The notes beneath the pieces are model-generated. The model was not told where the DNA came from and did no database searches. It worked only from the letters and a program-made list of their open reading frames with translations. From NCBI GenBank assembly GCA_013002345.1, contig JABDKH010000072.1, positions 1 to 36,452 of the forward strand: a DNA stretch of 36,452 nucleotides, written 5' to 3'. Source of the DNA: Rhodothermales bacterium. Lineage in GTDB: Bacteria > Bacteroidota > Rhodothermia > Rhodothermales > JABDKH01. Below are positions 1,343 through 36,452 of this stretch, in pieces (position 1 is the stretch's first letter; every line of letters begins with the position of its first letter). The position numbers and the translations under genes were made by a program.

Positions 1343-4048
1343 ATGCGCCATATGCTCTTGGCCGCAAGCATCGTCCTGGCGGGTCTAACGGTTCTCACCG
1401 CCAGCGCGCAGCTCAGCTTCGATTCGGAAGTCGCCCGTCCGATTCAACGGCAGGCTGCCACAGGCGACGACGCGCCCGCCGTGCAGACCATTCGCGCGAC
1501 AAGGGCTGAATCTGCCTTGTCCATCGACGGGCTTCACGACGACGTTGCCTGGCGCTCGGCTCAACCGATCACCAGGTTCACGCAGCGAGATCCTGACGAA
1601 GGGGCGGAGCCTACCCAGAGGACCGAAGTTCGCGTCGTGTACGATGACGATGCGCTCTTTGTCAGTGCCAGGATGTTCGACAGCGCGCCTGACTCGATCG
1701 TCGCTCGGCTTGGCCGCCGGGACGCTACCAGCATCGAGAGTGACAACTTCGTCATGTTCATCGATCCATACAACGACGACCGCTCCGGCTACTACTTCGG
1801 TATCAACGCTGCGGGCACTCTTTACGACGGCGTCCTGATGAACGACGATTGGGACGACGAGACGTGGGATGGCGTCTGGGAAGCCAACGCTCGGATCGAC
1901 GATCAAGGCTGGACCGCCGAGTTCCGGATCCCCTACTCGCAGTTACGCTTCTACGCTGCTGACGAGCACGTCTGGGGTATCAATTTTAGGCGCGAGATAG
2001 TGCGCAAAAACGAACTCGACTACGTCGTGTACACGCCGCGCAATGAAAGTGGCTTTGTCTCGCGGTTTCCTGATCTGGTTGGAATGCGCGGCATCGCGCC
2101 CAAACGACAGATCGAGGTCGTCCCTTATTTGACCGCGAGAGCGGAGTTCCTGGAGCACGATGAGGGCGATCCGTTCAACGACGGATCCCGTTACGTGCCG
2201 AGCGTCGGGGCGGACCTCAAGATGGGAATTGCAAGTAACCTGACTCTGAATGCGACTATCAATCCGGACTTCGGACAAGTCGAAGTCGACCCTGCAGTAG
2301 TCAACCTTTCCGACGTGGAGACCTTCTTCCCGGAAAAGCGACCTTTCTTCATCGAGGGTAACACCGTATTCAGACAGTTCGGTCGGGGTGGATCCAACAA
2401 CAACTGGGGGTTCAACTGGGGCAACCCGAATTTCTTCTACAGCCGCCGCGTCGGTCGGCCACCTCAAGGGAGTCTCCCGGACCACGACTTCGCCGAGTCC
2501 CGCGAAGGAACGCGCATACTGGGCGCCGCGAAAGTAACCGGCCGAATCGGCAATGGCTGGAACGTAGGAACTGTTCAGGCGCTCACCGAACGAGCGATTT
2601 CCGATTATCAGCTCGGCGGAGAACGGCTGACCGCCGAAGCGGAGCCGCTTGCGTACTACGGTGTTCTGCGAGGACAGAAAGAACTGAATGATGGTCGGCA
2701 GGCGGTCGGCTTCATGTCGACCGTTGCTGCTCGAGACTTTCGGGACGATCGCCTGCTGGACGAGATAAACAAGAGCGCATTTACGTTCGCTGCGGATGGC
2801 TGGACGTTTCTGGACAAAGACAAGACGTGGGTCCTTACCGGCTGGGCCGGCCTTTCACGTGTCAGCGGTACGACCCAGCGCATCACCGATCTGCAGCGAT
2901 CCTCGTTGCACTACTTCCAGCGTCCGGATGCGCAGTATGTGTCCGTCGATTCTTCCGCGACCTCCCTTACAGGTACGGCCGGGCGACTAGTGCTGAACAA
3001 ACAGCGGGGCCGCTTCACGACAAATGTGGCAGTTGGTTACATCAGTCCGTCGTTTGACGTGAACGACCTCGGATTCATGTGGCAGACAGGTATGATCAAC
3101 TCGCACGCCGTGCTTGCCTATCAATGGACGGACCCGGGAACCTGGTACCGGAAAATTTTCGCCCATGCGTCCGCTTTTAACACGACAGACTTCGATGGAA
3201 ATACGATCTGGCGTGGCCTCTGGACGGGCAATTTCATAGAGCTTCTGAACTATCACGAGATATTTTTCAACGTTGCCTACAACCCTGAAACTATCAGCAA
3301 CAGACTCACACGCGGAGGACCGCTCACTTTAAACCAGCCCGGCTGGCAATTTGGACTTGAGTACGAGACGGACGGTCGCAAGCGCTGGGCATTTGAGTTT
3401 GGACTGGACACCTATCGACAGAAGGACTCGCGGAATTTTTCAGTCTCCACGGAGGCCGTGTGGCAACCTGCGTCGAATATCTCGGTTGCGGTGCAGCCAG
3501 AGATCGAATGGAACAACGAGTTTGCACAATGGGTGGGCGATTATGAGGATCCGCTGGCGACGCGCACGTTCGGTACCCGGTACGTATTTGCCGAGCTGGA
3601 TCAGGTTGAAGTCTCGTCGAGAGTCAGGTTAAACTGGACGTTTTCGCCCGTATTGAGTCTTCAGCTATTCGCTCAGCCCCTCATCTCGTCCGGTGACTTC
3701 TCTAACTACAAGGAACTGAGAGCCCCAAAAACATTCGACTTCATCAACTACGGTAGCGAGGGGTCGACTTTCGATTCGGAAACACTCATCGCGGATCCTG
3801 ACGGTCCCGGGCCCGCTGCGCCCCTGAATCTCGAAGACTCGGATTTCAATTTCCGGTCACTTCGGGGTACTGCCGTCGTGCGCTGGGAGTACAGCCCGGG
3901 TTCGACGATATTCTTCGTGTGGACGCAGACGCGTTCCGCCTCAGAAGAGTACGGTGACTTGCGGCTTGGCAGCTCGCTCGGCGGCATCTTCGATGCCAGG
4001 CCTGATAACATCTTCATGGTCAAACTGACCTACTGGTTAAGCCGGTAG
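1343..4048 (+). CDS. DUF5916 outer-membrane protein with N-terminal CBM9-like domain (copy 1)
   Basis: The 901-residue product has a Sec signal peptide (about 1-22, ending ASAQ). A carbohydrate-binding family 9-like beta-sandwich follows at about 50-205 (SIDGLHDDVAWRSA..., later FIDPYNDD and GWTAEFRIPYSQLRF). The remainder is a beta-strand-rich region typical of DUF5916, including the family hallmark NPDFGQVEVD...FFPEKRPFFIEG at about 310-339. The C-terminus looks like outer-membrane beta-strands ending in KLTYWLSR. DUF5916 proteins are common in Bacteroidota and Gemmatimonadota; their function is not established. No strong Shine-Dalgarno precedes the ATG, but the signal peptide fixes the start. 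It is followed by a paralogue at 4391, so the two probably arose by duplication. Confidence 0.88.
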   Translation: MRHMLLAASIVLAGLTVLTASAQLSFDSEVARPIQRQAATGDDAPAVQTIRATRAESALSIDGLHDDVAWRSAQPITRFTQRDPDEGAEPTQRTEVRVVYDDDALFVSARMFDSAPDSIVARLGRRDATSIESDNFVMFIDPYNDDRSGYYFGINAAGTLYDGVLMNDDWDDETWDGVWEANARIDDQGWTAEFRIPYSQLRFYAADEHVWGINFRREIVRKNELDYVVYTPRNESGFVSRFPDLVGMRGIAPKRQIEVVPYLTARAEFLEHDEGDPFNDGSRYVPSVGADLKMGIASNLTLNATINPDFGQVEVDPAVVNLSDVETFFPEKRPFFIEGNTVFRQFGRGGSNNNWGFNWGNPNFFYSRRVGRPPQGSLPDHDFAESREGTRILGAAKVTGRIGNGWNVGTVQALTERAISDYQLGGERLTAEAEPLAYYGVLRGQKELNDGRQAVGFMSTVAARDFRDDRLLDEINKSAFTFAADGWTFLDKDKTWVLTGWAGLSRVSGTTQRITDLQRSSLHYFQRPDAQYVSVDSSATSLTGTAGRLVLNKQRGRFTTNVAVGYISPSFDVNDLGFMWQTGMINSHAVLAYQWTDPGTWYRKIFAHASAFNTTDFDGNTIWRGLWTGNFIELLNYHEIFFNVAYNPETISNRLTRGGPLTLNQPGWQFGLEYETDGRKRWAFEFGLDTYRQKDSRNFSVSTEAVWQPASNISVAVQPEIEWNNEFAQWVGDYEDPLATRTFGTRYVFAELDQVEVSSRVRLNWTFSPVLSLQLFAQPLISSGDFSNYKELRAPKTFDFINYGSEGSTFDSETLIADPDGPGPAAPLNLEDSDFNFRSLRGTAVVRWEYSPGSTIFFVWTQTRSASEEYGDLRLGSSLGGIFDARPDNIFMVKLTYWLSR

Positions 4049-21836: not shown

Positions 21837-24377
21837 ATGCAGCCCCTCTTTCGCAGGCTAACACCTCTGTTTCGCTTCATCATCAATCACCCGGTGTGGA
21901 TTCTGGTTGGGGCGATCGCACTTACGGCCCTCAGTTTCTCGTATGCGAGTCGGCTCTCCATTGAGGGCGACATCTCGAAACTGATTCCGGAGGATTACGC
22001 CAGCTACAAAGGGCTGCAGAGAGTTCGCGAGTCCGTCGGTGGTGGAAGCCAGAACGCCCTGGATGTCATCATCGAAAGCCCTTCCTTCGAGGCAAACAAG
22101 GCGTTCGCGGAGACCTTGATCCCGCGGGCCTTGCAACTAGATGACAGTGTTACCGCAGAGCCACTGTTTGTCAACGTAGAGTTCAGGCGCGATACCGAGT
22201 TCATACGGAAGAACGCCCTGTATTTCACGACATTCGATGAACTCGATCGTCTGCAAACATACCTGCAGGATCGCATCGAGGAAGAGAAGCTGAAGGCCAA
22301 TCCGTTCTACTTCGAACTCGATGACGAGGAAGAGGAGGACTCGACGTCGACGGAGGAGGAATTCCGGGAGGCGTACGACGAGATCGTAAAGAAGGAGTAC
22401 CCGATCTCGGACGACAGCACGACCATGCTGGTACGCTTCTACCCGAATGCCGTGCGAACGGATCTGAACGTCGTCGAGCGGACGCACGAGAGCCTGATGC
22501 AACTCATCGAGGACCTTCACCCGATGTCGTTCCATGCAGAGATGGAGACGATGACAGGCGGCAGTTTCATCCATGAAAGTAATCAGATCCGGCTGATCAC
22601 ACGCGACATTCGGTCGTCTTTCGGGGTGGGTGCATCATCCCTGCTTGCGGTTGTCCTGCTGTATTTCTTTTTCAAGTCATACCGGGCGCGTGCGGGGAAT
22701 CACTTTGATCGCCGGATCTTCGTGGAGGAACTCCTGCGAGTAGGGGTCGCCGCCCTACTGCTGGGTATTCCGCTCCTCATGAGTCTTAGCTGGGCGTACG
22801 GCCTCGCGTACCTGACCTACGAGAAACTCAATGCCCTGACGTCACCTCTCGGACTAGTGTTGTTTGGGCTGGGCATCGATTTCGGTATTCACTTCTACGC
22901 GAGATACGTTGAAGAGCGAGGTGAGGGACAGAGTCCCGGGTCGGCCATGATGGAAACCTTCATGAGTACCGGCCAGGCGATCACCGTGAGTGCCATGACG
23001 ACGGCGGTGGCACTTTACGTGCTCACGCTGGCGGATTTCCGCGGCTTCAGCGAATTCGGATTTCTGATGGGATCCGGCGTTCTGTTCGCGTTCGTAGCGA
23101 TGATGGCTGTACTCCCGGCGATGATTATTGTGTTCGAGCGGATTCGTGTCTTGAAGCTCGACGCCACACGCGCTCCCGACACAGCTTCTGCGGGTTCGCG
23201 GAGGCGATTTCCGCTTTCAAGAACCCTGCTGGTCACCTGCGCCGCCTATGTCCTGCTTTCGCTTGTGCTGGCACCTCAGGTGAGCTTCAATTACAACCCG
23301 GGGTTCAGCTACCAGAGAGAGTACAACAAGAAGAAGGGTCGCGTGATGCCTTCGTCGGGCAGACAGTCGCCAGCGATGATCGTGACGGACGAGCGCAGCG
23401 AGATTGCCCCACTTATCCGGGTGATTCAGGACAAGATCCGTTCGGACACGCTATCGCCCACGATCGGCGAAATCGAGTCCCTGCAGGATCGCGTCCCACT
23501 CGACTCGGCGGCACAGCAAGAGAAGCTTGCGACGATTGCCGAGATCCGCGAACTACTCGACGACCCGTTTATTCAGAACGAGGAGTCGGAATACCTCGAT
23601 CTGCTGCGGGATGCAACGGAGACGCGCGAGGCGCTTTCGATCAACGACGTACCGGATTACCTGAAGCGCAGCTTTACTACCAAGACAGGTGAGGTCGGTA
23701 ATCTGATCATGATCTACCCGGCGTTCGCCGTGTCGGGTGGACGCGCATCGATCGCGTTTGCCAACGATGTTCAGTCGTTCGTAACGGAAGATGGGAAGAC
23801 ACATTATCCCGGTTCGACTTCGCTTGTAGCCGCGGAGATGATCCAGCTCATGCAGCGCGAGAGTCCGCTCATGATTGCGCTTACATTTCTGATCATCCTC
23901 GTCCTGATGCTCGTCAATTTCCGATCGGTTTTATGGGCCTTGCTTGCGCTGGTCCCGGTCGTGGCGGGGATGCTATGGATGCTGGGTACGATGGTCCTAC
24001 TGGGGATTCAGCTCGACTTTTATAATCTCGTTATCCTGCCGGCGATCCTGGGCATTGGCAACGACGCGGGAGTGCACATCGTGCACCGATTCCGCGAGCT
24101 GGGCAAGGGCTCGATCATGGACGTGCTGCGTTCGTCAGGTGAACACGTCGTCATGGCATCGCTCACGACAATGATCGGATTCGGGGGACTGCTCATCTCC
24201 ATGCACACGGGTATCTCGTCGATCGGCAAGCTCGCGGTCATCGGCATCAGCGCCACGATGATTGCCGCCATAATTCTGCTGCCCGCGCTGCTCCAGTGGC
24301 TGGAGGACAGGGGTAGCCTGCCGATGGATCATTCCGGAGTCGGTATGGACGAGACGGCTGTCTCCGCAAAGGCGTGA
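21837..24377 (+). CDS. RND superfamily (MMPL-type) transporter
   Basis: The 846-residue inner-membrane protein has the duplicated RND plan. TM1 is at about 17-35, followed by a large periplasmic loop (36-260). TM2-6 lie at about 262-435, a second loop at about 475-685, and TM8-12 to the end. The paired family motifs GLGIDFGIHFYARYVEE (344-360) and GIGNDAGVHIVHRFRE (near 741-756) contain the charged residues used for proton coupling. The first loop has a strongly acidic stretch (residues 160-176, DDEEEED...). Members of this branch export lipids, hopanoids or other hydrophobic molecules; the cargo here is unknown. No membrane-fusion or outer-membrane partner lies next to it. It is convergent with a TonB receptor gene. 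Confidence 0.88.
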   Translation: MQPLFRRLTPLFRFIINHPVWILVGAIALTALSFSYASRLSIEGDISKLIPEDYASYKGLQRVRESVGGGSQNALDVIIESPSFEANKAFAETLIPRALQLDDSVTAEPLFVNVEFRRDTEFIRKNALYFTTFDELDRLQTYLQDRIEEEKLKANPFYFELDDEEEEDSTSTEEEFREAYDEIVKKEYPISDDSTTMLVRFYPNAVRTDLNVVERTHESLMQLIEDLHPMSFHAEMETMTGGSFIHESNQIRLITRDIRSSFGVGASSLLAVVLLYFFFKSYRARAGNHFDRRIFVEELLRVGVAALLLGIPLLMSLSWAYGLAYLTYEKLNALTSPLGLVLFGLGIDFGIHFYARYVEERGEGQSPGSAMMETFMSTGQAITVSAMTTAVALYVLTLADFRGFSEFGFLMGSGVLFAFVAMMAVLPAMIIVFERIRVLKLDATRAPDTASAGSRRRFPLSRTLLVTCAAYVLLSLVLAPQVSFNYNPGFSYQREYNKKKGRVMPSSGRQSPAMIVTDERSEIAPLIRVIQDKIRSDTLSPTIGEIESLQDRVPLDSAAQQEKLATIAEIRELLDDPFIQNEESEYLDLLRDATETREALSINDVPDYLKRSFTTKTGEVGNLIMIYPAFAVSGGRASIAFANDVQSFVTEDGKTHYPGSTSLVAAEMIQLMQRESPLMIALTFLIILVLMLVNFRSVLWALLALVPVVAGMLWMLGTMVLLGIQLDFYNLVILPAILGIGNDAGVHIVHRFRELGKGSIMDVLRSSGEHVVMASLTTMIGFGGLLISMHTGISSIGKLAVIGISATMIAAIILLPALLQWLEDRGSLPMDHSGVGMDETAVSAKA

Positions 24378-24424: not shown

Positions 24425-26497
24425 TCAGACCCCGGACTTGCGTCCTGGCAACGACAGGTCGAGTCCAAACCGAAAGGTCCGTCCCGGCCCCGGAAGCCCT
24501 GGTTGTGGTAACGTGAGCACGTCCGTGACGTTGTCGACGCGGCCGAACACTTCTGTAACGACTCGGCCGGAAGTCAGTCGATATCCAGCACGCACATTGA
24601 AGGCCACTGAGGTTGCGAGCGGGACTAATGAGTTGCTATCGTCGATGCCGTACGCACGCCCCGTGTACAAGGTCTGCAGAAGTAAGGAGAAGCCCGAACG
24701 TGAGTTGTACCGCAGGGTGCCGATCCCCAGCCACTCGGGCGTCTCGATCGCCTGTACAGTCGCGCCTGCGTCAACGGTCTGGGCTCGCACCCATGTGACG
24801 TGACCTGCGAGTGTAAGTCCCGCAGCAAGACGGCCCCGTCCGACCATCTCTACACCGACGGATCGACCCCCAGCCCGGTTGATCCGCTGTCGGCGGGCCT
24901 GCGCTTCATCAGGAAGGAGTACGAAGCGCTGGTCAATCGTGTCATACGAGCGCTCGAAGAACACGACCGATTCGCCCTCAAACCGCCGGGTCCGTATCTC
25001 AAAACCGGCCTCAACCATCACACGCGACTCCGCCGTAAGCTCGGGATTCAGGAGGAATCGACCGAGCGCCTCACCGAACAGCTCGCGCATTGTCGGGAAT
25101 CTCGTTTTCCGGCCGGCTGATAGTCGCAGGGCGGTGCGCTCATCGAAGGCATACCTCAGGCCGGCGGTAAGACTCACGGCCATTTCAGGATTGCGGGCGG
25201 GCTTGTCGCCGGTGACAGGAGTCGCCGAGCCGTCTAGACTTCCTCCAAGCTGCCACATGAGACGCCCGGGCGGCCGCCACTCGTATTCCGCACCCAGACT
25301 CCAGATGTGCTGACCGAATCTCAGGTCAGCCGCATCTGGCCGTAGCGACCCTGTCGGGTCGAGGGCGTAGTCGGTCTGGACGTGCCGCGATGTCAACAGG
25401 TTTAGCGCGAGACGAATCGTGCCGATACGAACCGGCTGATGTAAAATAAAGCGTGCACCAGCGGTACGATCTTTGTCGTCCTGCCTGTCAACTAACGATG
25501 CGTACGCAGCGGATTCGTACTGCTGAATGCCCTGTGCAAAACGACCTAGCCAGATCGCTCCACGAACGTGTGCTCCACGATCACCAAGCGGCACATCCGT
25601 TCCAATGATCGCCATCGAGTTACGACGGTACGGATAGCGCCAGTATCGGACTCGTGACTGATCGGGGTCTAGATGCCCTTCGGGCGCAACACCCTGCTCT
25701 GCATCAACATGCATCAGTGTTAATCCAATGCGGCCGCCGTTGCCAAGGCGATGCGTGACCCGACCGAAGACGTCCATCAATGAACGGTCGGTGTTTGTCC
25801 GTCGGTCGTTCCGGAGCTGGTTGAAGGCCAGATTGTGATCGGTCGGAAGGGTGAGACCGGCCCGACGGCTGTAGCCTGCACTGAGGCCATACTCAACGCC
25901 GCTTGCACGGGAAAGCTGCGTCAATCGACCCTGGACAAGGCCCGCCGATCCACCCGCAATTTCGAGTTCCGATAGCTGGCCCCGCCTCGAAACCTTGCGC
26001 GGCTTGAGGTCGACGGTGCCCCCGATGGCGTTGGCGCCGTGCAGTACCGATACTGCGCCCTTCGAAACAACGATCTCACCAATGACATTCGCGGGCACGA
26101 GCGAAAGGTCAAATCGACTATCCCATGGGACGTTTAACAGCGCACCGTCGAAGAAGACGGCCACCTGTCGCTCTCGCGCACCGCGCAGATAGACGTGCGA
26201 CTCGCCCCGGGAATTCGTCTGCACGTGCGCGGCCGGAATGAGTCTGATAATCTCGTCAGCCGAAGACGCATCGGCCAGGGCAATACCTGCGAGTGGTAAT
26301 CGCTGCAGAGTATTCGGGGCCCGCTCGCCCCGCGGCACATCAACGACGACGATCTCTTCCAGGGCATATGACCTCAACGAATCAGGTGAAGAGGTCGCAT
26401 CCTGAGCACGGACCGAATTGGTGACAAGAGTACCCACTGCCAGAGCGATGGACACTATCCGAAGTATGGCCTGCGACAGATCCTCAGGTGCTGGCAT
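24425..26497 (-). CDS. TonB-dependent receptor
   Basis: The 690-residue product (ATG at 26497; a TTG lies one codon before) has a signal peptide to about residue 32 (TNSVRAQ). The plug domain at about 45-160 includes YALEEIVVVDVPRGERAPN as a TonB-box-like region, SADEIIRLIPAAHVQTNSRG, VYLRGARERQVAVFFDGA, and IGEIVVSKGAVSVLHGANAIGGTVDLKPR. The barrel includes RKTRFPTMRELFGEALGRFLLNPELTAE, a characteristic late-barrel motif. It resembles the BtuB/siderophore-receptor class more than the SusC class, since it has no N-terminal carboxypeptidase-like domain. The ligand is unknown. It diverges from xdhA across about 200 nt, which raises, but does not prove, a link to uptake for purine metabolism or its cofactors. 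Confidence 0.9.
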   Translation of the reverse strand: MPAPEDLSQAILRIVSIALAVGTLVTNSVRAQDATSSPDSLRSYALEEIVVVDVPRGERAPNTLQRLPLAGIALADASSADEIIRLIPAAHVQTNSRGESHVYLRGARERQVAVFFDGALLNVPWDSRFDLSLVPANVIGEIVVSKGAVSVLHGANAIGGTVDLKPRKVSRRGQLSELEIAGGSAGLVQGRLTQLSRASGVEYGLSAGYSRRAGLTLPTDHNLAFNQLRNDRRTNTDRSLMDVFGRVTHRLGNGGRIGLTLMHVDAEQGVAPEGHLDPDQSRVRYWRYPYRRNSMAIIGTDVPLGDRGAHVRGAIWLGRFAQGIQQYESAAYASLVDRQDDKDRTAGARFILHQPVRIGTIRLALNLLTSRHVQTDYALDPTGSLRPDAADLRFGQHIWSLGAEYEWRPPGRLMWQLGGSLDGSATPVTGDKPARNPEMAVSLTAGLRYAFDERTALRLSAGRKTRFPTMRELFGEALGRFLLNPELTAESRVMVEAGFEIRTRRFEGESVVFFERSYDTIDQRFVLLPDEAQARRQRINRAGGRSVGVEMVGRGRLAAGLTLAGHVTWVRAQTVDAGATVQAIETPEWLGIGTLRYNSRSGFSLLLQTLYTGRAYGIDDSNSLVPLATSVAFNVRAGYRLTSGRVVTEVFGRVDNVTDVLTLPQPGLPGPGRTFRFGLDLSLPGRKSGV

Positions 26498-26617
26498 CAA
26501 GACTGGAAATGTGGGGTCGACGGCATGCCGGTATTAGACGAAGGTGCCCACCGGATCCAGAGCAGACAATGGACCACCGCACCGCCTCCTTGGACTAACT
26601 TGCCTCCGGGATGGTTC

Positions 26618-26645
26618 TTGTGGAACTTACCATAACCAGTATCAT
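26618..26645 (+). promoter_or_regulatory. Putative promoter of xdhABC
   Basis: TTGTGG (26618-26623) and TATCAT (26640-26645) are separated by 16 nt, with CATAA inside the spacer. The last element matches five of six bases of a sigma-70 -10 box. Nearly the same arrangement precedes the second xanthine dehydrogenase gene at 33770-33798, so the element is probably real and perhaps co-regulated. Confidence 0.5.
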
Positions 26646-26701
26646 CGAAAAATGAAGACTCCGGGATGGGAGTGCGTCTGCTTCCGACTCCGTGGCTGCC
26701 G

Positions 26702-28120
26702 ATGACAACACCGCTGCATTTCTATCTGAACGACAAGGAGATCGTTGCTACCCAGCCGCGCGAAACATCGGTGCTCGATCTTCTGCGGAACACGCAGCGA
26801 CTTACGGGAACGAAAGAGGGTTGTCGCGAGGGTGACTGTGGCGCTTGCGTTGTGCTCGTCGGCGAGTTGCGTAACGATCACCTCCACTACAAGCCGGTCA
26901 CGTCCTGCCTGATGCCGATCGGCCAATTGCAGGGCAAACATCTTGTAACGATCGAAGGCCTCAATCAGAAGGAGCTCTCTACGGTGCAGCAGGCGATCGT
27001 GGACGAAGGAGCGTCGCAGTGCGGGTTCTGCACTCCGGGAATCGTGGTGTCACTGACGGGTTACTTGTTGGAGCACGATCAACCCGTCACGATCGACGGT
27101 GTCAAGACAGCGCTTGGTGGACACCTGTGCCGATGTACCGGCTACCGGTCGCTCAAGGCCGTTGCCGACCACCTGCAAGAAGCCTGGAGCAGCGAGAGCG
27201 GTGTCCGACCGCACGCTCACAGCGGATTGCTACCGGCGTACTTCGAGCGCATGCCGGAAAGGCTCAGGTCGATGGCCCCGAATGCCTCTCCGAATGGACA
27301 GACCTCAGCCGATGTCTACATCGCAGGAGGTACCGACGTATATGTCCAGACCGACGGCGACTTTTCAGATATACGCGTAACCGTGCTCTCCGACCTCCCG
27401 GAAATGGAGGGTATCACCGAGACTCACGACGCGATCGACGTGGGTGCGCTAACGACCTTCGAGGATTTCGGTCGACATCCGGCTATTGTTCGGATGATTC
27501 CGGATATCCAGGCCTACATGTTTTTGATCGCCTCCCTCCAGGTCCGCAATCGCGCTACGCTCGGAGGCAACGTGATCAACGCATCGCCCATCGGAGACAT
27601 GACCATACTGTTTCTCGCATTGAGAGCAGAATTGTCTCTGAGCAACGGTACTTCTTCCCGAACCGTGCCACTGGCCAGTTTCTATCAAGGATACAAGGAA
27701 CTTGACAAGTCACCGGATGAGGTCCTCACTCGAATCCGAATTCAAAGGCCGACGGCTAATACCCGGATCAACTGGGAAAAGGTCTCGAAGCGCAAGTGTC
27801 TCGACATCGCGTCTGTCAACAGCGCGATAACGATTCGCGTCGATGGCGATCGCGTCGTCGAAGCATCGTTAGCCATGGGTGGCGTGGCTCCAATTCCGAA
27901 ACTTCTGACACAGACTGGCGACTTTCTCGCAGGCAAATCGGTGACAGCCAAAACGGTGCTCGGGGCTGTCGCAGTCGCGCAGCGAGAGATCAGTCCCATA
28001 AGCGACATCCGCGGCACGGCAACCTACAAACGACTGCTGGCCCGGCAGCTGATCCTTGCCCATTTCGTTCGGCTGTTTCCCGAACACATCCGTCTCGATG
28101 AGTTGTATGAAGCACCTTGA
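26702..28120 (+). CDS. xdhA: Xanthine dehydrogenase small subunit (2Fe-2S and FAD domains)
   Basis: The 472-residue product starts at the ATG at 26702 (MTTPLHFYLNDKEI); the frame is open from another ATG at 26666. The ferredoxin-like domain ligates the first cluster with Cys41, 46, 49 and 69 (GCREGDCGAC, TSCL). The all-helical domain ligates the second with Cys107, 110, 143 and 145 (QCGFCTPG, HLCRCTGYR). After a linker comes the FAD domain (from about 200): IAGGTDVYVQ and RNRATLGGNVINASPIGDM, followed by the CO-dehydrogenase flavoprotein C-terminal part. It passes electrons from the Mo centre of XdhB through the clusters to FAD and NAD+ in the cytoplasm. Its end overlaps xdhB by 14 nt, indicating translational coupling. 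Confidence 0.93.
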   Translation: MTTPLHFYLNDKEIVATQPRETSVLDLLRNTQRLTGTKEGCREGDCGACVVLVGELRNDHLHYKPVTSCLMPIGQLQGKHLVTIEGLNQKELSTVQQAIVDEGASQCGFCTPGIVVSLTGYLLEHDQPVTIDGVKTALGGHLCRCTGYRSLKAVADHLQEAWSSESGVRPHAHSGLLPAYFERMPERLRSMAPNASPNGQTSADVYIAGGTDVYVQTDGDFSDIRVTVLSDLPEMEGITETHDAIDVGALTTFEDFGRHPAIVRMIPDIQAYMFLIASLQVRNRATLGGNVINASPIGDMTILFLALRAELSLSNGTSSRTVPLASFYQGYKELDKSPDEVLTRIRIQRPTANTRINWEKVSKRKCLDIASVNSAITIRVDGDRVVEASLAMGGVAPIPKLLTQTGDFLAGKSVTAKTVLGAVAVAQREISPISDIRGTATYKRLLARQLILAHFVRLFPEHIRLDELYEAP

Positions 28121-30413
28121 CGCAGCATATCATACGCGAGGCGAGTCGGAGTATGTAGATGATGTCCGGCAGCCGGCCGGAATGCTGCAGGCCGCGGTCT
28201 TCGCGTCGCCGGTTGCTCACGCCAGAATTACGGAACTGCAGTCGGATCGTGCACGGGCACTTCCGGGTGTCCACGCGATCCTCGACGCGCGCGACATACC
28301 GGGCGAGAATCAGATCGGGCCGATTATTCAAGACGAGCCGCTTCTCGCTGAAGGCGACGTACACTTTGTGGGCCAACCCGTTGCCGTGGTGCTCGCCGAA
28401 TCGGCCGAGATCGCACGCGCTGCCGTTCGGATGATCGAGATCCAGTATGACGAGAGGCAGGCCATCACGGATCCGCGCGAAGCGTTCGACCGCGGCGAAA
28501 TCATCGGCACGACCAGAACCTTTGAAATGGGCGACGTGGACGCCGCCTGGGCGTTGTGTGCACACGTGGTCGAAGGTCGATGCGATGTAGGTGGCCAGGA
28601 TCACGTGTACCTTGAAACACAGCGCTCGCGTGCCGTGCCACTAGAGGGCGGCCGCATGCGTGTTTTCTCCTCCACCCAGAGCCCGTACGCGGGTCAGAGG
28701 ACGGTCGCTCGAATACTGGGAGTTCCGAACAATCATGTCGAGATCGATGTGACGCGACTGGGCGGCGGCTTCGGAGGAAAGGAGGACCAGGCGACACCCT
28801 GGGCATGTCTGGCCGCGCTCGGCGCGTGGCATACTGGACGACCGGTCGAACTCGTCCTTCGTCGATCGGAGGACATGATGATGACGGGTAAGCGCCATCC
28901 GTACTCGTCAGACTTCAAGATCGGTGCCGCTGCCGACGGGAAGATTCTGGCTTACTCGGTGCGGCATTATCAGAATGCTGGAGCAGCGGCCGATCTCTCG
29001 CCCGCGGTGCTGGAACGCACACTGTTTCACTCGACTAACAGCTACTTCATCCCAAATGTCAGGGCGTTTGCCACGTCGTGCCGTACCAATCTTCCTCCCA
29101 ACACTGCGTTTCGGGGATTCGGCGGACCACAGGGAATGTTCGTCATCGAGAGCGCTATCGCCCGCCTCGCCGAAACCATCGGCGAGCGTGCGGAGAACAT
29201 TCAGAGGATCAACCTGCTGATCGACGGGGATACGTTCCCGTACGGACAGACGGTGGAAGACGGTCGCGCAACGAGGACGTGGGAGGCTGCGGAGAGCTCG
29301 TTTGACCTGCCGTCGATCGTGCAGCGTGTCTCATCATTCAACGATTCCAACTTCGGTATCAAGAAGGGCGTCGCGGTCATGCCGATCTGCTTCGGCATTT
29401 CGTTCACCACGACGTTCATGAATCAGGCCGGTGCTCTGGTCCACGTGTACACCGATGGCTCCGTAAGCGTGAGCACCGGAGGCGTTGAAATGGGTCAGGG
29501 TCTCGTCACCAACATCGCAGCGATCGCTGCAACAGCATTCGGCATCAAACCCGAGCGCATCAGAATAGAGACGACAAATACGACGCGCGTAGCGAACATG
29601 TCGCCGTCGGCGGCCAGCTCGACGACGCTGCTTAACGGAAATGCTACGCTGGTCGCAGTACGCGAAATCGTCGACCGCTTGAAGCGGGCGGCGATCCAGG
29701 AGCTGGGGGCGCCTGATACCAGCGTCATCACGATCGAAGACGAAATCGTAACATGTGACGGGAGTCAGACGAGCCTGACGTGGGCCGCACTGACCATGGC
29801 TGCACATCTAAGACGTGTAGATCTGTCAGCGCACGGATTCTTTGCGACGCCGGACATCCATTTCGACAAAGGAAAAGAGATGGGAAAACCGTTCGCCTAT
29901 CACACGTATGGAACAGCCATCATTCAGACGACGGTCGACTGCCTTCGCGGAACGTATGATGTCGACAGCGTCAAGATCGTGCACGACATGGGACGACCTC
30001 TCAACCGGTCAGTCGACCTCGGGCAAATCGAGGGCGGACTCGCCCAGGGCCTCGGATGGATGACGATGGAGGACCTGCAGTACGACGACATGGGGCGACT
30101 GATGTCGGGAGCGCTGGCGACGTACAAGGTGCCGGACGTCTATTTCATGCCGGACGATATCCAGGTGGAGTTCCTGCGCGACGCCGACGAGGTTCTGGGG
30201 CCATACGGTAGCAAGGCGGTCGGCGAGCCGCCGCTGATGTACGGTATCGGCGTGTTCTTCGCACTTCGGAATGCCATGCGTGAGTTCCGGCCCGACGTCG
30301 ATCTCCAGTTCGAGGCGCCCATAACTCCCGAACGGATGCTCCTGGCCCTGCACCCGGAGATAGTCCATGAACTTTCTCGTCTCGAGCCACCGATCATCGA
30401 GGAATCAGTGTGA
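28107..30413 (+). CDS. xdhB: Xanthine dehydrogenase molybdopterin-binding subunit
   Basis: The 768-residue product from the ATG at 28107 (MKHLDAAYHTRGESEYVDD, the usual family start) has the 'hammerhead' domain followed by the Mo-cofactor domains. GGGFGGKED near 218-226 carries the Glu that contacts the purine. FRGFGGPQG near 334-342 carries the substrate Arg. GGVEMGQGLVT binds the pterin, and the active-site Glu that starts hydroxylation sits in AVGEPPLMYG near residue 706. These residues are those used for hypoxanthine/xanthine oxidation, so purine specificity is likely rather than aldehyde or CO oxidation. The frame is also open from a TTG at 28056 and an ATG at 28098. It is followed at once by xdhC. 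Confidence 0.93.
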   Translation: MKHLDAAYHTRGESEYVDDVRQPAGMLQAAVFASPVAHARITELQSDRARALPGVHAILDARDIPGENQIGPIIQDEPLLAEGDVHFVGQPVAVVLAESAEIARAAVRMIEIQYDERQAITDPREAFDRGEIIGTTRTFEMGDVDAAWALCAHVVEGRCDVGGQDHVYLETQRSRAVPLEGGRMRVFSSTQSPYAGQRTVARILGVPNNHVEIDVTRLGGGFGGKEDQATPWACLAALGAWHTGRPVELVLRRSEDMMMTGKRHPYSSDFKIGAAADGKILAYSVRHYQNAGAAADLSPAVLERTLFHSTNSYFIPNVRAFATSCRTNLPPNTAFRGFGGPQGMFVIESAIARLAETIGERAENIQRINLLIDGDTFPYGQTVEDGRATRTWEAAESSFDLPSIVQRVSSFNDSNFGIKKGVAVMPICFGISFTTTFMNQAGALVHVYTDGSVSVSTGGVEMGQGLVTNIAAIAATAFGIKPERIRIETTNTTRVANMSPSAASSTTLLNGNATLVAVREIVDRLKRAAIQELGAPDTSVITIEDEIVTCDGSQTSLTWAALTMAAHLRRVDLSAHGFFATPDIHFDKGKEMGKPFAYHTYGTAIIQTTVDCLRGTYDVDSVKIVHDMGRPLNRSVDLGQIEGGLAQGLGWMTMEDLQYDDMGRLMSGALATYKVPDVYFMPDDIQVEFLRDADEVLGPYGSKAVGEPPLMYGIGVFFALRNAMREFRPDVDLQFEAPITPERMLLALHPEIVHELSRLEPPIIEESV

Positions 30414-30423
30414 GTACCTCGTC

Positions 30424-31389
30424 GTGAAGTCGTTCTGGATCATCGTCAGTAAGCACCTCAGCCGGGGCGAACGTGTATTTGTGGCTCGAGTGGCAGACCA
30501 CACCGCCCACTCGCCTGGAACAACCGGGGCAGGTCTGATCGTGACAGAGGCTGGATTTGTGGCAGGAACGATCGGTGGCGGTGTCATGGAATTCAATGTC
30601 ATCGAAGAGGCGCGGACGGCTCTAGACACCGGACGGTTTCAGACGCGTATCCAGACGCTCCATCATCAGGCACGAGGCGCCGGAGACCCGTCCGGACTAA
30701 TCTGCGCCGGCCGCCAGACAAATCTCTACTGCGTGTACAGCCCGGACGTTGACGCGGCCGCAATTGAACAGGCCGCGACTGCGCAACGGATGAACAGGCC
30801 GGGCGTACTGACGATATCGGAATCGGCGACGAAATTCGCGGATACGCGAAATGAATCGCTGTGGACACAGTCGTCGCTCGAGTATTCGGCGGATGGGTGG
30901 AAATACGTCGAGCAGATGCTCAATCTGCGGCGGATCGCTATCCTGGGCGGCGGGCACTGCGGGCTCGCTCTTTCACGCGTGATGTACGACCTGGGCTACG
31001 ACGTGTCGGTGTTTGACACTCGGTCCGACGCCCCGGCGATGACGGAGGCACCACCGGAGAACACAATGACGGTCGTCCCGGATTACGCGGAGGTCGGCGC
31101 GACGATCGCCTACCCTGACCTGACAGAAGTTGTCGTGATGACCACTGATCTGACATCGGACGTGCGAGCGTTGTCCGGAATCATGGATCATCCGTTTCCA
31201 TTCGTCGGCGTGATGGGAAGCGCAGCGAAGATCGCTGCGATCAAAACAGCGCTTGGTTCAGAGGGGTTGGCGGAAGAGATCCTCGACCGGATCACAGCTC
31301 CAGTCGGCCTGCCGATCGGTAGCAATACCCCGCAGGAGATCGCGATCAGCGTGTCGGCCCAGCTCCTGCAACGTCGAGCGTCGACGTGA
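30424..31389 (+). CDS. xdhC: XdhC/CoxI family molybdenum-cofactor maturation factor
   Basis: The 321-residue product from the GTG at 30424 (VKSFWIIVSKHLSRGE, resembling the family start) lies 10 nt after the xdhB stop. An ATG at 30367, overlapping xdhB, is an alternative. The N-terminal domain has SPGTTGAGLIVTEAGFVAGTIGGG and an ICAGRQTNLYC segment. The C-terminal Rossmann domain has ILGGGHCGLALSRVMYDLGYDVSVFDTR and FVGVMGSAAKIAAI. XdhC proteins bind the Mo-molybdopterin cofactor, help its sulfuration and insert it into XdhB, so this gene completes a functional xdhABC operon. It is not part of the final enzyme. Confidence 0.9.
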   Translation: MKSFWIIVSKHLSRGERVFVARVADHTAHSPGTTGAGLIVTEAGFVAGTIGGGVMEFNVIEEARTALDTGRFQTRIQTLHHQARGAGDPSGLICAGRQTNLYCVYSPDVDAAAIEQAATAQRMNRPGVLTISESATKFADTRNESLWTQSSLEYSADGWKYVEQMLNLRRIAILGGGHCGLALSRVMYDLGYDVSVFDTRSDAPAMTEAPPENTMTVVPDYAEVGATIAYPDLTEVVVMTTDLTSDVRALSGIMDHPFPFVGVMGSAAKIAAIKTALGSEGLAEEILDRITAPVGLPIGSNTPQEIAISVSAQLLQRRAST

Positions 31390-31416
31390 GGAGCGCCACG
31401 TTTCGTCTGCTCAAAG

Positions 31417-31438
31417 CCACGTTGGCAACTCAACGTGG
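31417..31438. terminator. Hairpin between convergent xdhC and guaC
   Basis: A perfect 8-bp stem (CCACGTTG/CAACGTGG) with a 6-nt loop sits 28 nt after the xdhC stop and 44 nt from the guaC stop. There is no clear T-run on either side. It is a plausible shared terminator for the two converging transcripts. Confidence 0.5.
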
Positions 31439-31481
31439 ACCGATACACCAGACGCCGAAACAACCTCATACATACCGACGA

Positions 31482-32486
31482 CTACATCGCCTTGTGTGGA
31501 AGGCTCTCGGTTCTTCCCGCTTGTGAGACAACGAGATACTCAAGTTTACGCTGCAGCTCGCGAATCGTGATCGCTCCGCCATAGGTGAGACCCGATCTCA
31601 GACCTCCGATCATATCTGCGATGATCTCGTCGATGTCTTCCCGATACTCGACATATGTGGAGACTCCTTCCGCCGTCCTCCAGTCCGGCACGCCACCGAT
31701 GAACGAGTCCTGCGCCTCCTGACTGGCCATACCCCGAAACTCCTTCACGCGGCGCCCGTCCATCGTCACGACCTCACCGGGCGTCGGGGCCGTGCCCGCC
31801 AGCATTCCTCCAAGCATTACGAAGTCGGCTCCGAACGCAAGCGCCTTCACGATATCACCCGGCCTCCGAATTCCCCCATCGGCAATGACGGATCGGTCCG
31901 TTTTGGCACATTGTTGAATCGACGTCAACATCGGGACGCCGAACCCAGTCTTGATGCGGGTACTGCAGACGGACCCGCCGCCGATCCCGACCTTGATCAG
32001 GTCGGCCCCGCACGATGCCAGGTAGTCGGCGCCCGCATACGTTGCCACGTTACCCGCGATGATGCAGGCGCTCGGGAGCAAATCCCGTAGACGTTTGAGC
32101 GTCGCACCCACATACTTTCCATGCGCGTGCGCGACGTCGATACAGAAATATGACGCACCCGCGTCCCTCAGCGCTTCCGCCCGCTCGAGGTCCGACTCGG
32201 AGCAACCGATCGATACAAACGTAGTGGAGGTACACTTCTTGTACTCGGCAATATTCCGATCGACGGACAGGAAACGATGGAGCACGCCCACTCCCCCCTT
32301 CGCCGAGATGTAATTCGCCATGTCACTTTCCGTGATCGTGTCCATGTTGGACGACATGACCGGAAGCTGAAGCGTCAGAAGGCCTCGCTTGTCCGTCATC
32401 GAGATATCAACCAGTCGACGCGACTCGCTGTGGTTGTATGCCGGCACGAGAAGAACGTCGTCGTAGGTGATGGCTTGCTGACTCAT
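31482..32486 (-). CDS. guaC: GMP reductase (IMPDH/GMPR family)
   Basis: The 334-residue product is a TIM barrel without the CBS pair found in most IMP dehydrogenases. It starts with ITYDDVLLVPAY, has PVMSSNMDTIT, and carries the catalytic Cys174 in GGGSVCSTRIKTGFG. VIADGGIRRPGDIVKALAFGADFVMLGGMLAGT and FRGMASQEAQDSF are closer to GMP reductase (GGMLAG, GM-S-x-E) than to IMP dehydrogenase. The reaction is GMP + NADPH to IMP + ammonia, which channels guanine nucleotides toward hypoxanthine and xanthine. This fits the flanking xanthine dehydrogenase genes. It is convergent with xdhC and divergent from the carbamate kinase gene. IMP dehydrogenase activity is a less likely alternative. Confidence 0.85.
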   Translation of the reverse strand: MSQQAITYDDVLLVPAYNHSESRRLVDISMTDKRGLLTLQLPVMSSNMDTITESDMANYISAKGGVGVLHRFLSVDRNIAEYKKCTSTTFVSIGCSESDLERAEALRDAGASYFCIDVAHAHGKYVGATLKRLRDLLPSACIIAGNVATYAGADYLASCGADLIKVGIGGGSVCSTRIKTGFGVPMLTSIQQCAKTDRSVIADGGIRRPGDIVKALAFGADFVMLGGMLAGTAPTPGEVVTMDGRRVKEFRGMASQEAQDSFIGGVPDWRTAEGVSTYVEYREDIDEIIADMIGGLRSGLTYGGAITIRELQRKLEYLVVSQAGRTESLPHKAM

Positions 32487-32747
32487 TGGATTTCAGTATG
32501 TATCGTGTCTAATCGTCAGGAGGAGACCGGTGTCTGTGCCATCGCAGTCTACAGGGTGAACAGCGAATGCGCAACGGTGGTGCGCATCATCCACTCGTCG
32601 ATGTCGACCAGCGCCGCAGGCGAGTTTGTGCCGCTGCCACAGGACCAATAGGGTCCCCAGGATGGTTAAGGAGGTCAGGCGTCGAGATGGATATCGACAC
32701 CCTTACGCTGTGCCTCAAGACACCGAACCAGATTCGCGGAGGTTGGC

Positions 32748-33692
32748 ATGTCGGCAATTCGAGTAGTGGTCGCCGTCGGAGGCAACTCGTTGATCCGGGA
32801 CTCGCAGCATCAATCTGTCCAGGACCAGTATGCAATGGCGGCATTGACGGACGACCATATCGCCACGCTGGTTCAGATGGGATACGAGGTAGCGATCACT
32901 CATGGGAACGGACCCCAGGTTGGATTCATCCTCCGTCGCTCCGAGCTCGCAGCGCACGAACTGCACGAGATACCGTTGGAGGTGTGCGGGGCGGACACGC
33001 AGGGCGCGATCGGCTATGCGTTGCAGCAGAATCTCTGCAATGATTTTCGTCGGCTCGGCATCGAGAAAGGCGTGGCCACCGTCATCAGTCAGGTCGAGGT
33101 CGACATTAACGATCCTGCGTTCCTGAGCCCGAGCAAGCCGATCGGATGGTATATGGACGAGGTGACCGCGAGTCGCCGACAGAAGGAAGGCTGGCATGTT
33201 GTACAGGAGGGCGACAAAGGATGGCGGCGGGTGGTCGCGTCTCCCCGACCGCTGCGCATAATAGAAGCACCCGTAATCCGAAAGCTCATCGACTCTGGAT
33301 TCGTCGTGATCGCCGTGGGTGGCGGAGGCATACCGGTTGTAAGGGAGCAGTCAGGAGACGTTCGCGGCGTGGAGGCTGTTATCGACAAGGATCTTGCGTC
33401 TGGATTGCTCGCGACCGCACTGGACGCAAGTTTGCTGGTGATCGCGACATCGGTTGAGAAGGCCGCGCTTCATTTTGGGACACCGAAACAGCAATGGATC
33501 GATACCATCACGTTGGACGAAGCGAAAGGGTACCTCGCAGAAGGGATCCATTTCGGACGTGGCAGCATGGAGCCCAAGATCCAGGCGATCGTTGACTTCA
33601 TCGAGGCGGGGGGCACGGAAGGACTGATCACGAACGCGGAGAATCTGGAGCGTGCGGTATCCGGCGAGACCGGCACGCGAATCACACGCTAG
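32748..33692 (+). CDS. arcC: Carbamate kinase
   Basis: The 314-residue product belongs to the amino-acid kinase fold: VVVAVGGNSL at the N-terminus (phosphate loop), THGNGPQVGF (51-60), GYALQQNL, SPSKPIGWYM, VIAVGGGGIPVV, VIDKDLASGLLA near 212-223 and the closing SMEPKIQAIVDFIEAGG near 274. These are the conserved carbamate-kinase motifs. The enzyme makes ATP from carbamoyl phosphate and ADP. GGAGG 5 nt before the ATG supports the start. No arginine deiminase or ornithine carbamoyltransferase gene lies nearby, so the usual arginine-deiminase role is not supported. Its place between two xanthine dehydrogenase loci suggests it harvests carbamoyl phosphate from purine or ureide breakdown. Confidence 0.92.
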   Translation: MSAIRVVVAVGGNSLIRDSQHQSVQDQYAMAALTDDHIATLVQMGYEVAITHGNGPQVGFILRRSELAAHELHEIPLEVCGADTQGAIGYALQQNLCNDFRRLGIEKGVATVISQVEVDINDPAFLSPSKPIGWYMDEVTASRRQKEGWHVVQEGDKGWRRVVASPRPLRIIEAPVIRKLIDSGFVVIAVGGGGIPVVREQSGDVRGVEAVIDKDLASGLLATALDASLLVIATSVEKAALHFGTPKQQWIDTITLDEAKGYLAEGIHFGRGSMEPKIQAIVDFIEAGGTEGLITNAENLERAVSGETGTRITR

Positions 33693-33769
33693 GTCTCCGC
33701 GGTTCGATGTTCCAACCGGTGTCTACATCGTCGGGCGTCGGAAGATCGGGCCCAATTGCGCTGTTTACC

Positions 33770-33798
33770 TTGTGGGTGCTGATCCCATAAAGTATCAT
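33770..33798 (+). promoter_or_regulatory. Putative promoter of the fused xanthine dehydrogenase gene
   Basis: TTGTGG (33770-33775) and TATCAT (33793-33798) are separated by 17 nt, with CATAA in the spacer. This closely parallels the element before xdhA (26618-26645). The predicted transcript would start about 20 nt before the ATG at 33824. Confidence 0.5.
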
Positions 33799-33823
33799 GC
33801 AGTCCCACCCTCGACGTAGCCCG

Positions 33824-36452
33824 ATGTCAGACATTACTTTCAGCCTGAATGGCACGGAGACTACGGTCTCGTGCGATCCCGAACAGCATTTCCTCGAAGT
33901 CCTGCGGGAGGAATGTGGAATGACGTCTGTGAAGGACGGCTGCTCGCCGCAGGGCTATTGCGGCTGTTGCACGGTCCTGGTCGACGGCCGCCCCGCTCTT
34001 TCATGTCTTCGCAAGGCGGAGCAGATGGACGGTCGGTCGGTCGAGACGCTGGATGGTGTTTCGGAAAACAAGCTCCGCATTCTGTCGGAGGCTTTTGTCC
34101 AGGAGGGCGGGATCCAGTGCGGTTTCTGTATTCCAGGTATCGTGATGCGGGCCTACGCGCTTCTTGAACGCACCGACAAGCCGGATCGCACAGTCATCGA
34201 GCGCGCGCTGTCCGGTCATCTTTGCCGGTGCACGGGCTACAGCCGAATTGTAGATGCGATCGAGACCGCCGGCGAGATGTGGAATAACGGGATCCCGGCC
34301 CGCGGCAAGCCGCGGCGGTCCGATTTCTTCGGCGAGGCATTCGGCCTTGAAAGGAGCTCGCCGTCAAATGGCGCAGCCGGAGGTCAGGGAGTTGGCGATT
34401 CCTCGTCCCGCTATCGTGGCATCGAGCATGCGCTGGGCCACAAGCCGTACGTCGCGGACATGCGCATCGACGGGATGCTCCACGGAGCTGTTGTTCTAAG
34501 CGAGCATCCGAGAGCGAAGGTTATCGATATCGACACAGGCCCGGCGCTCGAGATGCCGGGTGTCTCGAGGGTGGTTACGGCAGCCGACGTTCCCGGTGAA
34601 CGCCACGTCGGACTGATCTTGAAAGACTGGCCCGTTTTCGTTGCGGTCGGCGAAACGACCCGATGCGTTGGCGACGTGCTCGCGCTCGTTGTGGCGGATT
34701 CGATGTTCAACGCCCGACGAGCTGCCGACGCGGTTCGCGTTCGGTACGAGGTACTTGAGGCAGTCACGGACCCTGCTGCTGCACTCGCAGAAGACGCTCC
34801 CCGGGTTCACGACACCGGCAACAAACTGGAGGTCTGCTCATTTTCTCGAGGCGACGTAGACGAGTCACTGCCGTCGTGTGAGCATGTGATTGAGCAGTCC
34901 TTCGAGACGCAGCGGATTGAGCACGCATTCCTTGAGCCGGAGGCCTGTCTGGCCGTACCGCAAGACGACAACCTCAAGGTGTACTCGCAGGGTCAAGGCG
35001 TTCACGACGATCAGCTGCAGATCGCCAGCGTTCTGGGCATAGACATCGATCAGATCGACGTGGAACTCGTCACGAACGGAGGCGCGTTCGGCGGCAAGGA
35101 AGATCTATCGGTACAGGCGCAGACTTCGCTTGCCGCTCAGTTGCTTGGTGTACCTGTCCGAACGGTATTGACGCGCGAGCAGTCGATTCGCATCCACCCC
35201 AAGCGCCATCCGATCACACTTCATTACACCGTCGGGGCCGACGCTGACGGGCACCTGCAGGCTGTCCGCGTACGCATTGTGGGCGACACGGGTGCGTACG
35301 CATCGGTGGGGATGAAAGTGTTGGAGCGTGCCGCCGGTCATTCGTGCGGTGTGTATCGCGTTCCAGACGTCGATGTCGAGGCGACGACGGTCTACACCAA
35401 CAATCCTCCGTGTGGCGCCATGCGCGGCTTCGGCGCGAACCAGGCGACGTTCGCCATTGAAGGTGTGATGGACATGCTCGCTGAACGCGTGGGCGTCGAC
35501 GGCTACGATATCCGGGAACGCAACATTCTCAGCCCGGGCGATCGATTTGCCACGGGTCAGATCATGACCAAGAGTTGCGGAATCCGGCAAACGCTGGAAG
35601 CAGTCCGCGATGTTTACAAGACTACGAAGTACGCGGGAATCGGATGTGGCATTAAGAATACTGGAATCGGCAACGGGCTCGAGGACAGTAGCCGCGTACG
35701 AATTCAGGTTCTGGAAAATGGCCAACTGAAGATACTTACGGGCTACACGGAGATGGGGCAGGGTCTGTTCACCGTTCTGCGACAGGTTGTTACGGAGGAG
35801 GCGGGTGTTGATCCCGACGTAATGCACGTTCGCGCCGTGAGCGACCCCGCTGTCTATTGCGGCATGACGACCGCATCGCGTGGGACGGCGCTGAGTACGA
35901 TAGCGGCCCAGCGGGCCGCCCGCAAACTCCGGGCTGATCTCGAGACGTCATCACTCGAGGATCTGGGCGGTCGGATCTACGATGGAGAATACGTGTGTGA
36001 ATTCACGACCAAGCCGGGGGCAGATGTCGATGATCCCAAAACCCACATGACATTCAGCTACGCGACCCAGGTTGTAATGCTGAACGACGATGGACGGATC
36101 GAACGTGTTGTCGCGGCACACGATGTGGGCCGCGCAATTAATCCGCTGGCGTGTGCCGGTCAGATTGAGGGGTCGGTCCACATGGGACTGGGATATGCCC
36201 TGTCCGAGGACTTCAGCTGCACGGGCGGTCACCCCGACTCACTTTTGCTCCGGGATCTTGGAATTCTGAAGGCGAAGGACACGCCGCAGATTGACGTGAT
36301 TCTTGTCGAGGTACCGGACGAGGTAGGCGGCTATGGTTCGAAGGGTATTGGAGAGATTGGACTCGTTCCGACCGCCGGAGCGGTTGCTGCCGCCCTTCAT
36401 TCATATGACGGTGTGCGTCGTTTCCGACTGCCTATGCAGGACTCGCCGGCAG
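33824..36452 (+). CDS. Fused 2Fe-2S/molybdopterin xanthine dehydrogenase (selenium-dependent XDH/XdhD type), 3' partial
   Basis: At least 876 residues are encoded; the frame is open at the right edge. Residues 1-150 form the two 2Fe-2S domains (Cys40, 46, 49, 61, then Cys99, 102, 134, 136). They are joined by a short linker (about 155-195) directly to the Mo-cofactor domain, with no FAD domain. Catalytic features are present: GGAFGGKED near 419-427 (substrate Glu), AMRGFGANQ near 533-540 (substrate Arg), TGYTEMGQGLF, and the active-site Glu in GIGEIGLVP near 843. This fused, FAD-less layout is that of the selenium-dependent xanthine dehydrogenase family and E. coli XdhD. Selenium there is a labile ligand, not selenocysteine, and there is no in-frame TGA. 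The first cluster has five residues between its first two Cys, against four in xdhA. Only the last residues appear to be missing. Confidence 0.88.
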   Translation, partial: MSDITFSLNGTETTVSCDPEQHFLEVLREECGMTSVKDGCSPQGYCGCCTVLVDGRPALSCLRKAEQMDGRSVETLDGVSENKLRILSEAFVQEGGIQCGFCIPGIVMRAYALLERTDKPDRTVIERALSGHLCRCTGYSRIVDAIETAGEMWNNGIPARGKPRRSDFFGEAFGLERSSPSNGAAGGQGVGDSSSRYRGIEHALGHKPYVADMRIDGMLHGAVVLSEHPRAKVIDIDTGPALEMPGVSRVVTAADVPGERHVGLILKDWPVFVAVGETTRCVGDVLALVVADSMFNARRAADAVRVRYEVLEAVTDPAAALAEDAPRVHDTGNKLEVCSFSRGDVDESLPSCEHVIEQSFETQRIEHAFLEPEACLAVPQDDNLKVYSQGQGVHDDQLQIASVLGIDIDQIDVELVTNGGAFGGKEDLSVQAQTSLAAQLLGVPVRTVLTREQSIRIHPKRHPITLHYTVGADADGHLQAVRVRIVGDTGAYASVGMKVLERAAGHSCGVYRVPDVDVEATTVYTNNPPCGAMRGFGANQATFAIEGVMDMLAERVGVDGYDIRERNILSPGDRFATGQIMTKSCGIRQTLEAVRDVYKTTKYAGIGCGIKNTGIGNGLEDSSRVRIQVLENGQLKILTGYTEMGQGLFTVLRQVVTEEAGVDPDVMHVRAVSDPAVYCGMTTASRGTALSTIAAQRAARKLRADLETSSLEDLGGRIYDGEYVCEFTTKPGADVDDPKTHMTFSYATQVVMLNDDGRIERVVAAHDVGRAINPLACAGQIEGSVHMGLGYALSEDFSCTGGHPDSLLLRDLGILKAKDTPQIDVILVEVPDEVGGYGSKGIGEIGLVPTAGAVAAALHSYDGVRRFRLPMQDSPA

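Follow-up and report, generated by a model that had tools for sequence, protein, structure and literature searches.

Two xanthine dehydrogenases (XDHs) of different architecture, encoded side by side with a carbamate kinase gene between them, raise the question of whether one bacterium handles xanthine by two parallel enzymes or uses both in succession. The window, i.e. the whole stretch of DNA that was analysed (36,452 nucleotides), is the entire contig C72 of a 4.1 Mb genome (381 contigs, 97% complete, 3.8% contamination), in which 2.4 kb separate the conventional XDH genes from the fused XDH gene. The six genes singled out by the sequence-only reading (xdhS, xdhL, xdhC, a guaC-like gene, the carbamate kinase gene and the fused XDH gene) were all found where it had placed them, and an ORF check of the window returned them as intact ORFs at 26666–36452, with the fused XDH gene truncated by the window end. 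Judged by homology, the locus is very probably the left end of a purine-degradation cluster using the reductive urate pathway, with a candidate gene for every step. Homologous genes of E. coli and Clostridia were shown biochemically in 2025 to form an oxygen-independent reductive urate route (PMC12507026, PMC12990295). Which genes the cluster contains and how they are arranged, which domains are missing, where the cluster occurs and how mosaic its ancestry is are direct observations of the present analysis.

Reconstruction of the cluster beyond the window is based on assembly overlaps in a fragmented metagenome-assembled genome (MAG). The join between C72 and C28 (Table 1) is followed by a second one, in which the final 127 bases of C28 are identical to the initial 127 of C210 with a continuous frame, and neither 127-base overlap was matched by any further contig of this genome. 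Uninterrupted contigs of other bacteria support both joins, with the same xdhD-ygfK adjacency in L054, L056 and L057 and the same ygeW-thrC adjacency in L052, L054 and L056. The joined frames encode a fused enzyme of 901 aa and the carbamoyltransferase YgeW of 327 aa. The tie to the E. coli xdhD/yge-ygf-yqe region that had been proposed from the window alone was borne out to the right, where YgfK-, SsnA-, YgeY- and YgeW-like genes, a PLP lyase gene and a hydantoinase gene are located, and the conserved neighbourhood that had been sought was found as a gene order kept in other phyla. To the left, the TonB-dependent receptor beside xdhS might, by position only, be a candidate uptake gene for purines or metal. 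The window also encodes an MMPL/HpnN-like transporter (21837–24374) that is 48% identical to the copy of the family member G024; a second such transporter on contig C173 is nearer to the G024 copy (65%), which makes the one in the window a probable paralogue.

Table 1. Features of the window and of the two contigs joined to it.
Feature	Contig	Position	Strand	Remarks
TonB-dependent receptor, divergent from xdhS	C72 (window)	24425–26500	-	Plug and TonB_dep_Rec domains
XdhS, XDH small subunit, [2Fe-2S] and FAD domains	C72	26666–28120	+	TIGR02963, E=3e-108; FAD_binding_5, CO_deh_flav_C
XdhL, conventional XDH molybdopterin subunit	C72	28107–30413	+	TIGR02965, 794 bits vs cut-off 850
XdhC, XDH maturation factor	C72	30367–31389	+	XdhC_C and XdhC_CoxI domains
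GMP reductase-like protein (GuaC), CBS-less	C72	31482–32486	-	E = 2e-72, under curated cut-offs
ArcC/YqeA, carbamate kinase	C72	32748–33692	+	NF009007, 372 bits vs cut-off 266
XdhD, fused [2Fe-2S]/molybdopterin hydroxylase	C72 to C28	33797–36452, continued at L003 1–177	+	TIGR03311, 892 bits vs cut-off 830
C72–C28 overlap	C72	36326–36452		final 127 bases of window = initial 127 of C28, exact; frame continuous
Contig C28 (L003)	C28			7269 bp; begins with xdhD end, 1–177
ygfK	C28	222–2372		716 aa
ssnA	C28	about 2369–3745		
PALP lyase, PLP-fold, cysteine-synthase-like	C28	3774–5243		489 aa
ygeY	C28	5240–6481		
ygeW	C28 to C210	6485 onto C210		
Contig C210 (L006)	C210			8180 bp
thrC-like (threonine-synthase-like)	C210	335–1585	+	
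preA	C210	1716–3134	-	
preT	C210	3180–4517	-	
mmsdh, methylmalonate-semialdehyde dehydrogenase	C210	4551–6029	-	
hyuA, D-hydantoinase	C210	6057–7502	-	
Aminotransferase	C210	7549 onward	-	

In E. coli and Clostridium, YgfK and SsnA dearomatise and open yanthine, HyuA opens the hydantoin, ureido groups are removed by YgeW or UacY and then by YgeY, and YgeX leads to pyruvate (PMC12507026, PMC12990295). From homology, by which we infer all of the chemistry in this organism, XdhABC would convert hypoxanthine and xanthine to urate with NAD+, and XdhD would reduce urate, with loss of an oxygen, to yanthine (2,8-dioxopurine). YgfK, as an FMN-barrel reductase like dihydropyrimidine dehydrogenase, would dearomatise yanthine, SsnA would open the ring to ureidomethyl-hydantoin, and the hydantoinase adjacent to preA and preT would convert the hydantoin to diureidopropionate. 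YgeW would transfer one ureido carbamoyl group to phosphate, and the carbamate kinase would use the resulting carbamoyl phosphate to form ATP, NH3 and CO2. The other ureido group would be removed by YgeY, and diaminopropionate would be cleaved to pyruvate by either of two PLP lyases (the 489-aa or the threonine-synthase-like protein).

The first of these steps is assigned to the conventional enzyme. The closest solved chains to XdhL are xanthine dehydrogenases (E about 1e-164), and XdhABC probably makes urate. XdhS, XdhL and XdhC are closest to those of two genomes of the same order, G043 (60, 72 and 53% identity) and G098 (59, 69 and 48%), and in the XdhL tree the window protein groups with that of G098 (94/96); since this tree has long branches, vertical descent of xdhABC is suggested rather than established. 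The neighbouring GuaC-like protein shows a GMPR-like motif (GGV..WRTAEG), and its nearest solved chain is 3r2g, which is named IMPDH. A GMP reductase gene was found at none of 80 related loci and is hence not conserved, so that it probably stands outside the pathway and the GMP to IMP arm of the earlier proposal loses its footing. Nor does the pairing of xdhABC with the cluster indicate the hybrid pathway that was envisaged there, as xdhABC also adjoins the cluster in E. coli, in genomes of the same phylum and at 10 of the 80 related loci.

The fused enzyme carries no FAD domain according to a domain search. XdhD is 70–73% identical to the XdhD of Gemmatimonadota loci in matching gene order and shares only 26% identity with its E. 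coli namesake. Its counterparts in E. coli and Clostridium convert urate to yanthine and act downstream of XdhABC (PMC12507026, PMC12990295), so the two XDHs here would work in series, with XdhD probably reducing urate to yanthine, instead of the fused enzyme offering an alternative outlet for xanthine as had been supposed. Residue E606 of E. coli XdhD, suggested to act in yanthine formation, is not matched by any residue of the present XdhD; it was dropped as a marker, TIGR03311-type enzymes being without that insertion.

A competing explanation, which we consider unlikely, takes XdhD as a second xanthine/hypoxanthine dehydrogenase parallel to XdhABC, with the remaining cluster acting on another substrate or on external urate. 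The name of TIGR03311 ('selenium-dependent xanthine dehydrogenase') refers to such an activity, molybdenum hydroxylases are reversible, and XdhD is distant from its E. coli namesake; however, the selenium system behind the family name is missing, the XdhD gene is located near a short ygfK in 30 of the 42 loci of at least 15 kb, mostly along with ssnA, and the FAD-less XdhAC of Clostridium reduces urate to yanthine (PMC12990295). Because selD had no match over the cut-off in the genome (97% complete; the top match was ThiL), the 'selenium-dependent' label should not be transferred to XdhD. YqeB (TIGR03309) and ygfM were likewise not found in the assembled region C72-C28-C210.

The putative urate reductase is followed by a shortened YgfK, which matches TIGR03315 across its N-terminal 400 residues (E=2e-116) and reaches 390 bits against a cut-off of 835 that applies to the full-length form. 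It aligns to E. coli YgfK at residues 10–403 and 903–985 only, with the entire FAD/NAD(P)H module between them missing. In an alignment this module was present in 4/4 long and 0/76 short YgfKs, rows that were picked for resemblance to the short form and do not amount to a census, and a well-supported branch of the YgfK tree parts the short from the long forms. The short clade comprises Planctomycetota, Myxococcota, Gemmatimonadota, Acidobacteriota, SAR324, KSB1, Calditrichota and others. The predicted fold of the YgfK of L054 (about 62% identical; pLDDT 86, pTM 0.90) gave DPD as the best match, followed by DHODs, as expected for an FMN-barrel reductase with an iron-sulphur domain. Short YgfK is undescribed in the literature searched, and a plasmid search returned only E. 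coli-type YgfK (37–38% identical).

Because YgfK is without the FAD/NAD(P)H module and XdhD without YgfM, both would require another electron donor, probably a carrier such as ferredoxin, or, for YgfK, PreT. Ferredoxin has been proposed as the donor for the FAD-less version of C. difficile (PMC12990295). PreT is 30% identical to residues 427–842 of E. coli YgfK, which correspond to the missing module; as neither preT nor preA was found beside the cluster at any of the 80 related loci, where short ygfK occurs apart from preT, a PreT-YgfK partnership stays a guess. The unlabelled neighbours in those 80 loci included no extra conserved redox partner, and only three of them recurred: a nitrilase-type hydrolase at 8 loci, an M20-type amidase at 7 and a zinc-ribbon PLP protein at 4. 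The nitrilase-type carbon-nitrogen hydrolase lies beside short ygfK in L075, L086, L098, L108, L109, L112, L114 and L122, and the M20-type amidase in L075, L086, L100, L101, L103, L108 and L119; both often occur where ygeW and ygeY were not found, and may replace ureido-cleaving steps.

The distribution of YgfK and the identities of its neighbours point to a mosaic origin. YgfK was found in none of the 113 other genomes of the order, two weak matches being ferredoxin domains only, and in 24 other genomes among 395 sampled from the phylum. The genes from xdhD to thrC are 62–81% identical to their counterparts in Gemmatimonadota or Acidobacteria MAG loci of matching gene order, compared with 35–60% for other loci of the same phylum, and YgfK falls inside a Gemmatimonadota/Acidobacteria clade (support 100 and 93). 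The oxidative operons of G043 and G098 have the same xdhABC genes in the same order (48–72% identical), whereas everything after xdhC differs, with allantoinase, allantoicase and OHCU decarboxylase there, plus uricase in G043 and a PuuD-type urate oxidase in G098, and the reductive block here. Uricase (PF01014) occurs in G043 and G018 and is absent from this genome. The block from xdhD to thrC was probably gained from a donor of the Gemmatimonadota/Acidobacteria type and occupies the slot that the uricase branch holds behind the xdhABC of relatives; the plainest reading is a gain of the reductive block behind a native-type xdhABC, in place of the oxidative block.

Misbinning of the right-hand contigs, or of the entire window, as Gemmatimonadota-like contamination would fit both the lack of YgfK in the rest of the order and the closest kin of the xdhD-to-thrC genes, but is distinctly improbable, with xdhS, xdhL and xdhC on the same contig as xdhD being nearest to genomes of the same order. 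In addition, the window halves, C28 and C210 show tetranucleotide correlations of 0.92–0.97 with their own genome, compared with 0.83 for Gemmatimonadota loci (the reference consisted of sampled contigs of this genome with two masked, and other contigs gave 0.86–0.96), a match that is not proof because binning itself selects on composition.

With the reductive block taken as part of this genome, its later steps can be assigned with varying certainty. SsnA exceeds the cut-off of NF005540 (450.6 vs 444 bits) and stays under that of TIGR03314 (432.6 vs 455.5). The hydantoinase on C210 (TIGR02033, 447 bits, over cut-off) is the sole copy in the genome, in which the only other cyclic amidohydrolase match of that kind is weaker (144 bits) and probably a dihydroorotase; with just one available, the preA-linked hydantoinase probably serves both purine and pyrimidine breakdown. 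In Gemmatimonadota clusters, a hydantoinase-like gene was observed between ygfK and ssnA (about 12142–13407 in L054, likewise in L053, L055 and L056), a position at which this genome's cluster has none. YgeY is well over its cut-off (NF009555, 480 vs 321 bits). YgeW is 35% identical to E. coli YgeW and keeps the STRTR and KSW motifs and the PLSVPQ-type loop, its partial ORF reaching 197 bits, under the cut-off of 453.

The carbamate kinase is 46% identical to E. coli YqeA and up to 60% identical to ArcC of the Gemmatimonadota uricolytic loci L129 and L131. That it serves the fermentation of arginine or agmatine and sits between the XDHs by accident is very improbable: an arginine-deiminase-like gene does exist on contig C272 (truncated, 177 bits vs cut-off 489, unlinked to the cluster), so the sequence-only reading went too far in reporting no such genes, but C272 is without arcB and arcC, arcC lies near ygeW in other uricolytic loci and in E. 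coli, and YgeW in this very cluster explains the kinase better.

The last step has two candidates. The 489-aa cysteine-synthase-like protein and the threonine-synthase-like protein are encoded beside short ygfK in 22/42 and 17/42 loci of at least 15 kb, respectively, and together in 16 of these, while both genes are missing from the two Pleomorphomonas loci in which a real YgeX is encoded. Residues 120 and 189 of E. coli YgeX are kept in neither protein; the diaminopropionate step is the least certain because neither is a clear YgeX.

Compared with the reductive pathway of E. coli (xdhABC, ygeW-ygeX-ygeY-hyuA-yqeA, ygfK-ssnA-ygfM-xdhD; PMC12507026), the present cluster has in common xdhABC beside xdhD, ygfK, ssnA, ygeY, ygeW, carbamate kinase and a HyuA-type hydantoinase. 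It differs in a YgfK without the FAD/NAD(P)H module, in having no YgfM near, in an XdhD of the TIGR03311 type in a genome without selD, in two other PLP-fold proteins in place of ygeX, and in a hydantoinase that sits in a pyrimidine cluster. With Clostridioides difficile and Clostridium sporogenes (XdhAC, UacX, UacY) it shares a FAD-less urate reductase and a dearomatising reductase without the FAD/NAD(P)H module; in contrast to them, the latter is a shortened YgfK, not UacX, and the ureido group would exit via YgeW and carbamate kinase, whereas in Clostridium the hydrolase UacY takes this role. As the Clostridium version is also without such modules, the lack of the YgfK module and of YgfM separates variants and does not decide membership of the pathway. 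The reductive pyrimidine pathway (PreT-PreA, dihydropyrimidinase) also employs an FMN-barrel reductase followed by a cyclic amidohydrolase, and here PreA, PreT and the hydantoinase are encoded in one assembled region with the urate cluster, but it acts on pyrimidine substrates and has no YgfK or SsnA.

The genome contains two haem-copper oxidase subunit I genes, so the bacterium probably respires oxygen, and the reductive urate pathway may serve in low-oxygen periods. What is new here is the combination of a short YgfK with a YgfM-less XdhD, the reductive block in the slot of the uricase branch, and haem-copper oxidases without uricase. The published survey of the reductive urate pathway listed six phyla (PMC12507026), and the spread of the short-YgfK variant across many phyla suggests that the environment holds a large reservoir of it. 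Which donor supplies electrons to the FAD-less urate reductase in the cell has been named as an open question (PMC12990295), for which loci with both reductases lacking NAD(P)H modules, including one next to preT, are direct candidates for donor tests. Tentatively, and with the odds not quite in its favour, these features could be drawn together into a widespread environmental form of the pathway, in which XdhD and YgfK without NAD(P)H modules draw on the same low-potential donor (or PreT), and which moved between phyla and replaced the uricase branch in an oxidase-bearing lineage; if true, a urate breakdown 'for anaerobes' would be used by oxygen-respiring bacteria. With a reductive branch standing in for an oxidative one behind a single operon, the locus would offer a clean example of pathway replacement. 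A DUF6986 protein was also noted in the oxidative urate operons of both G043 and G098 (L215 8083–9480, L218 2941–4473), in G043 with OHCU decarboxylase on one side and uricase on the other; it is a candidate for an unassigned step.
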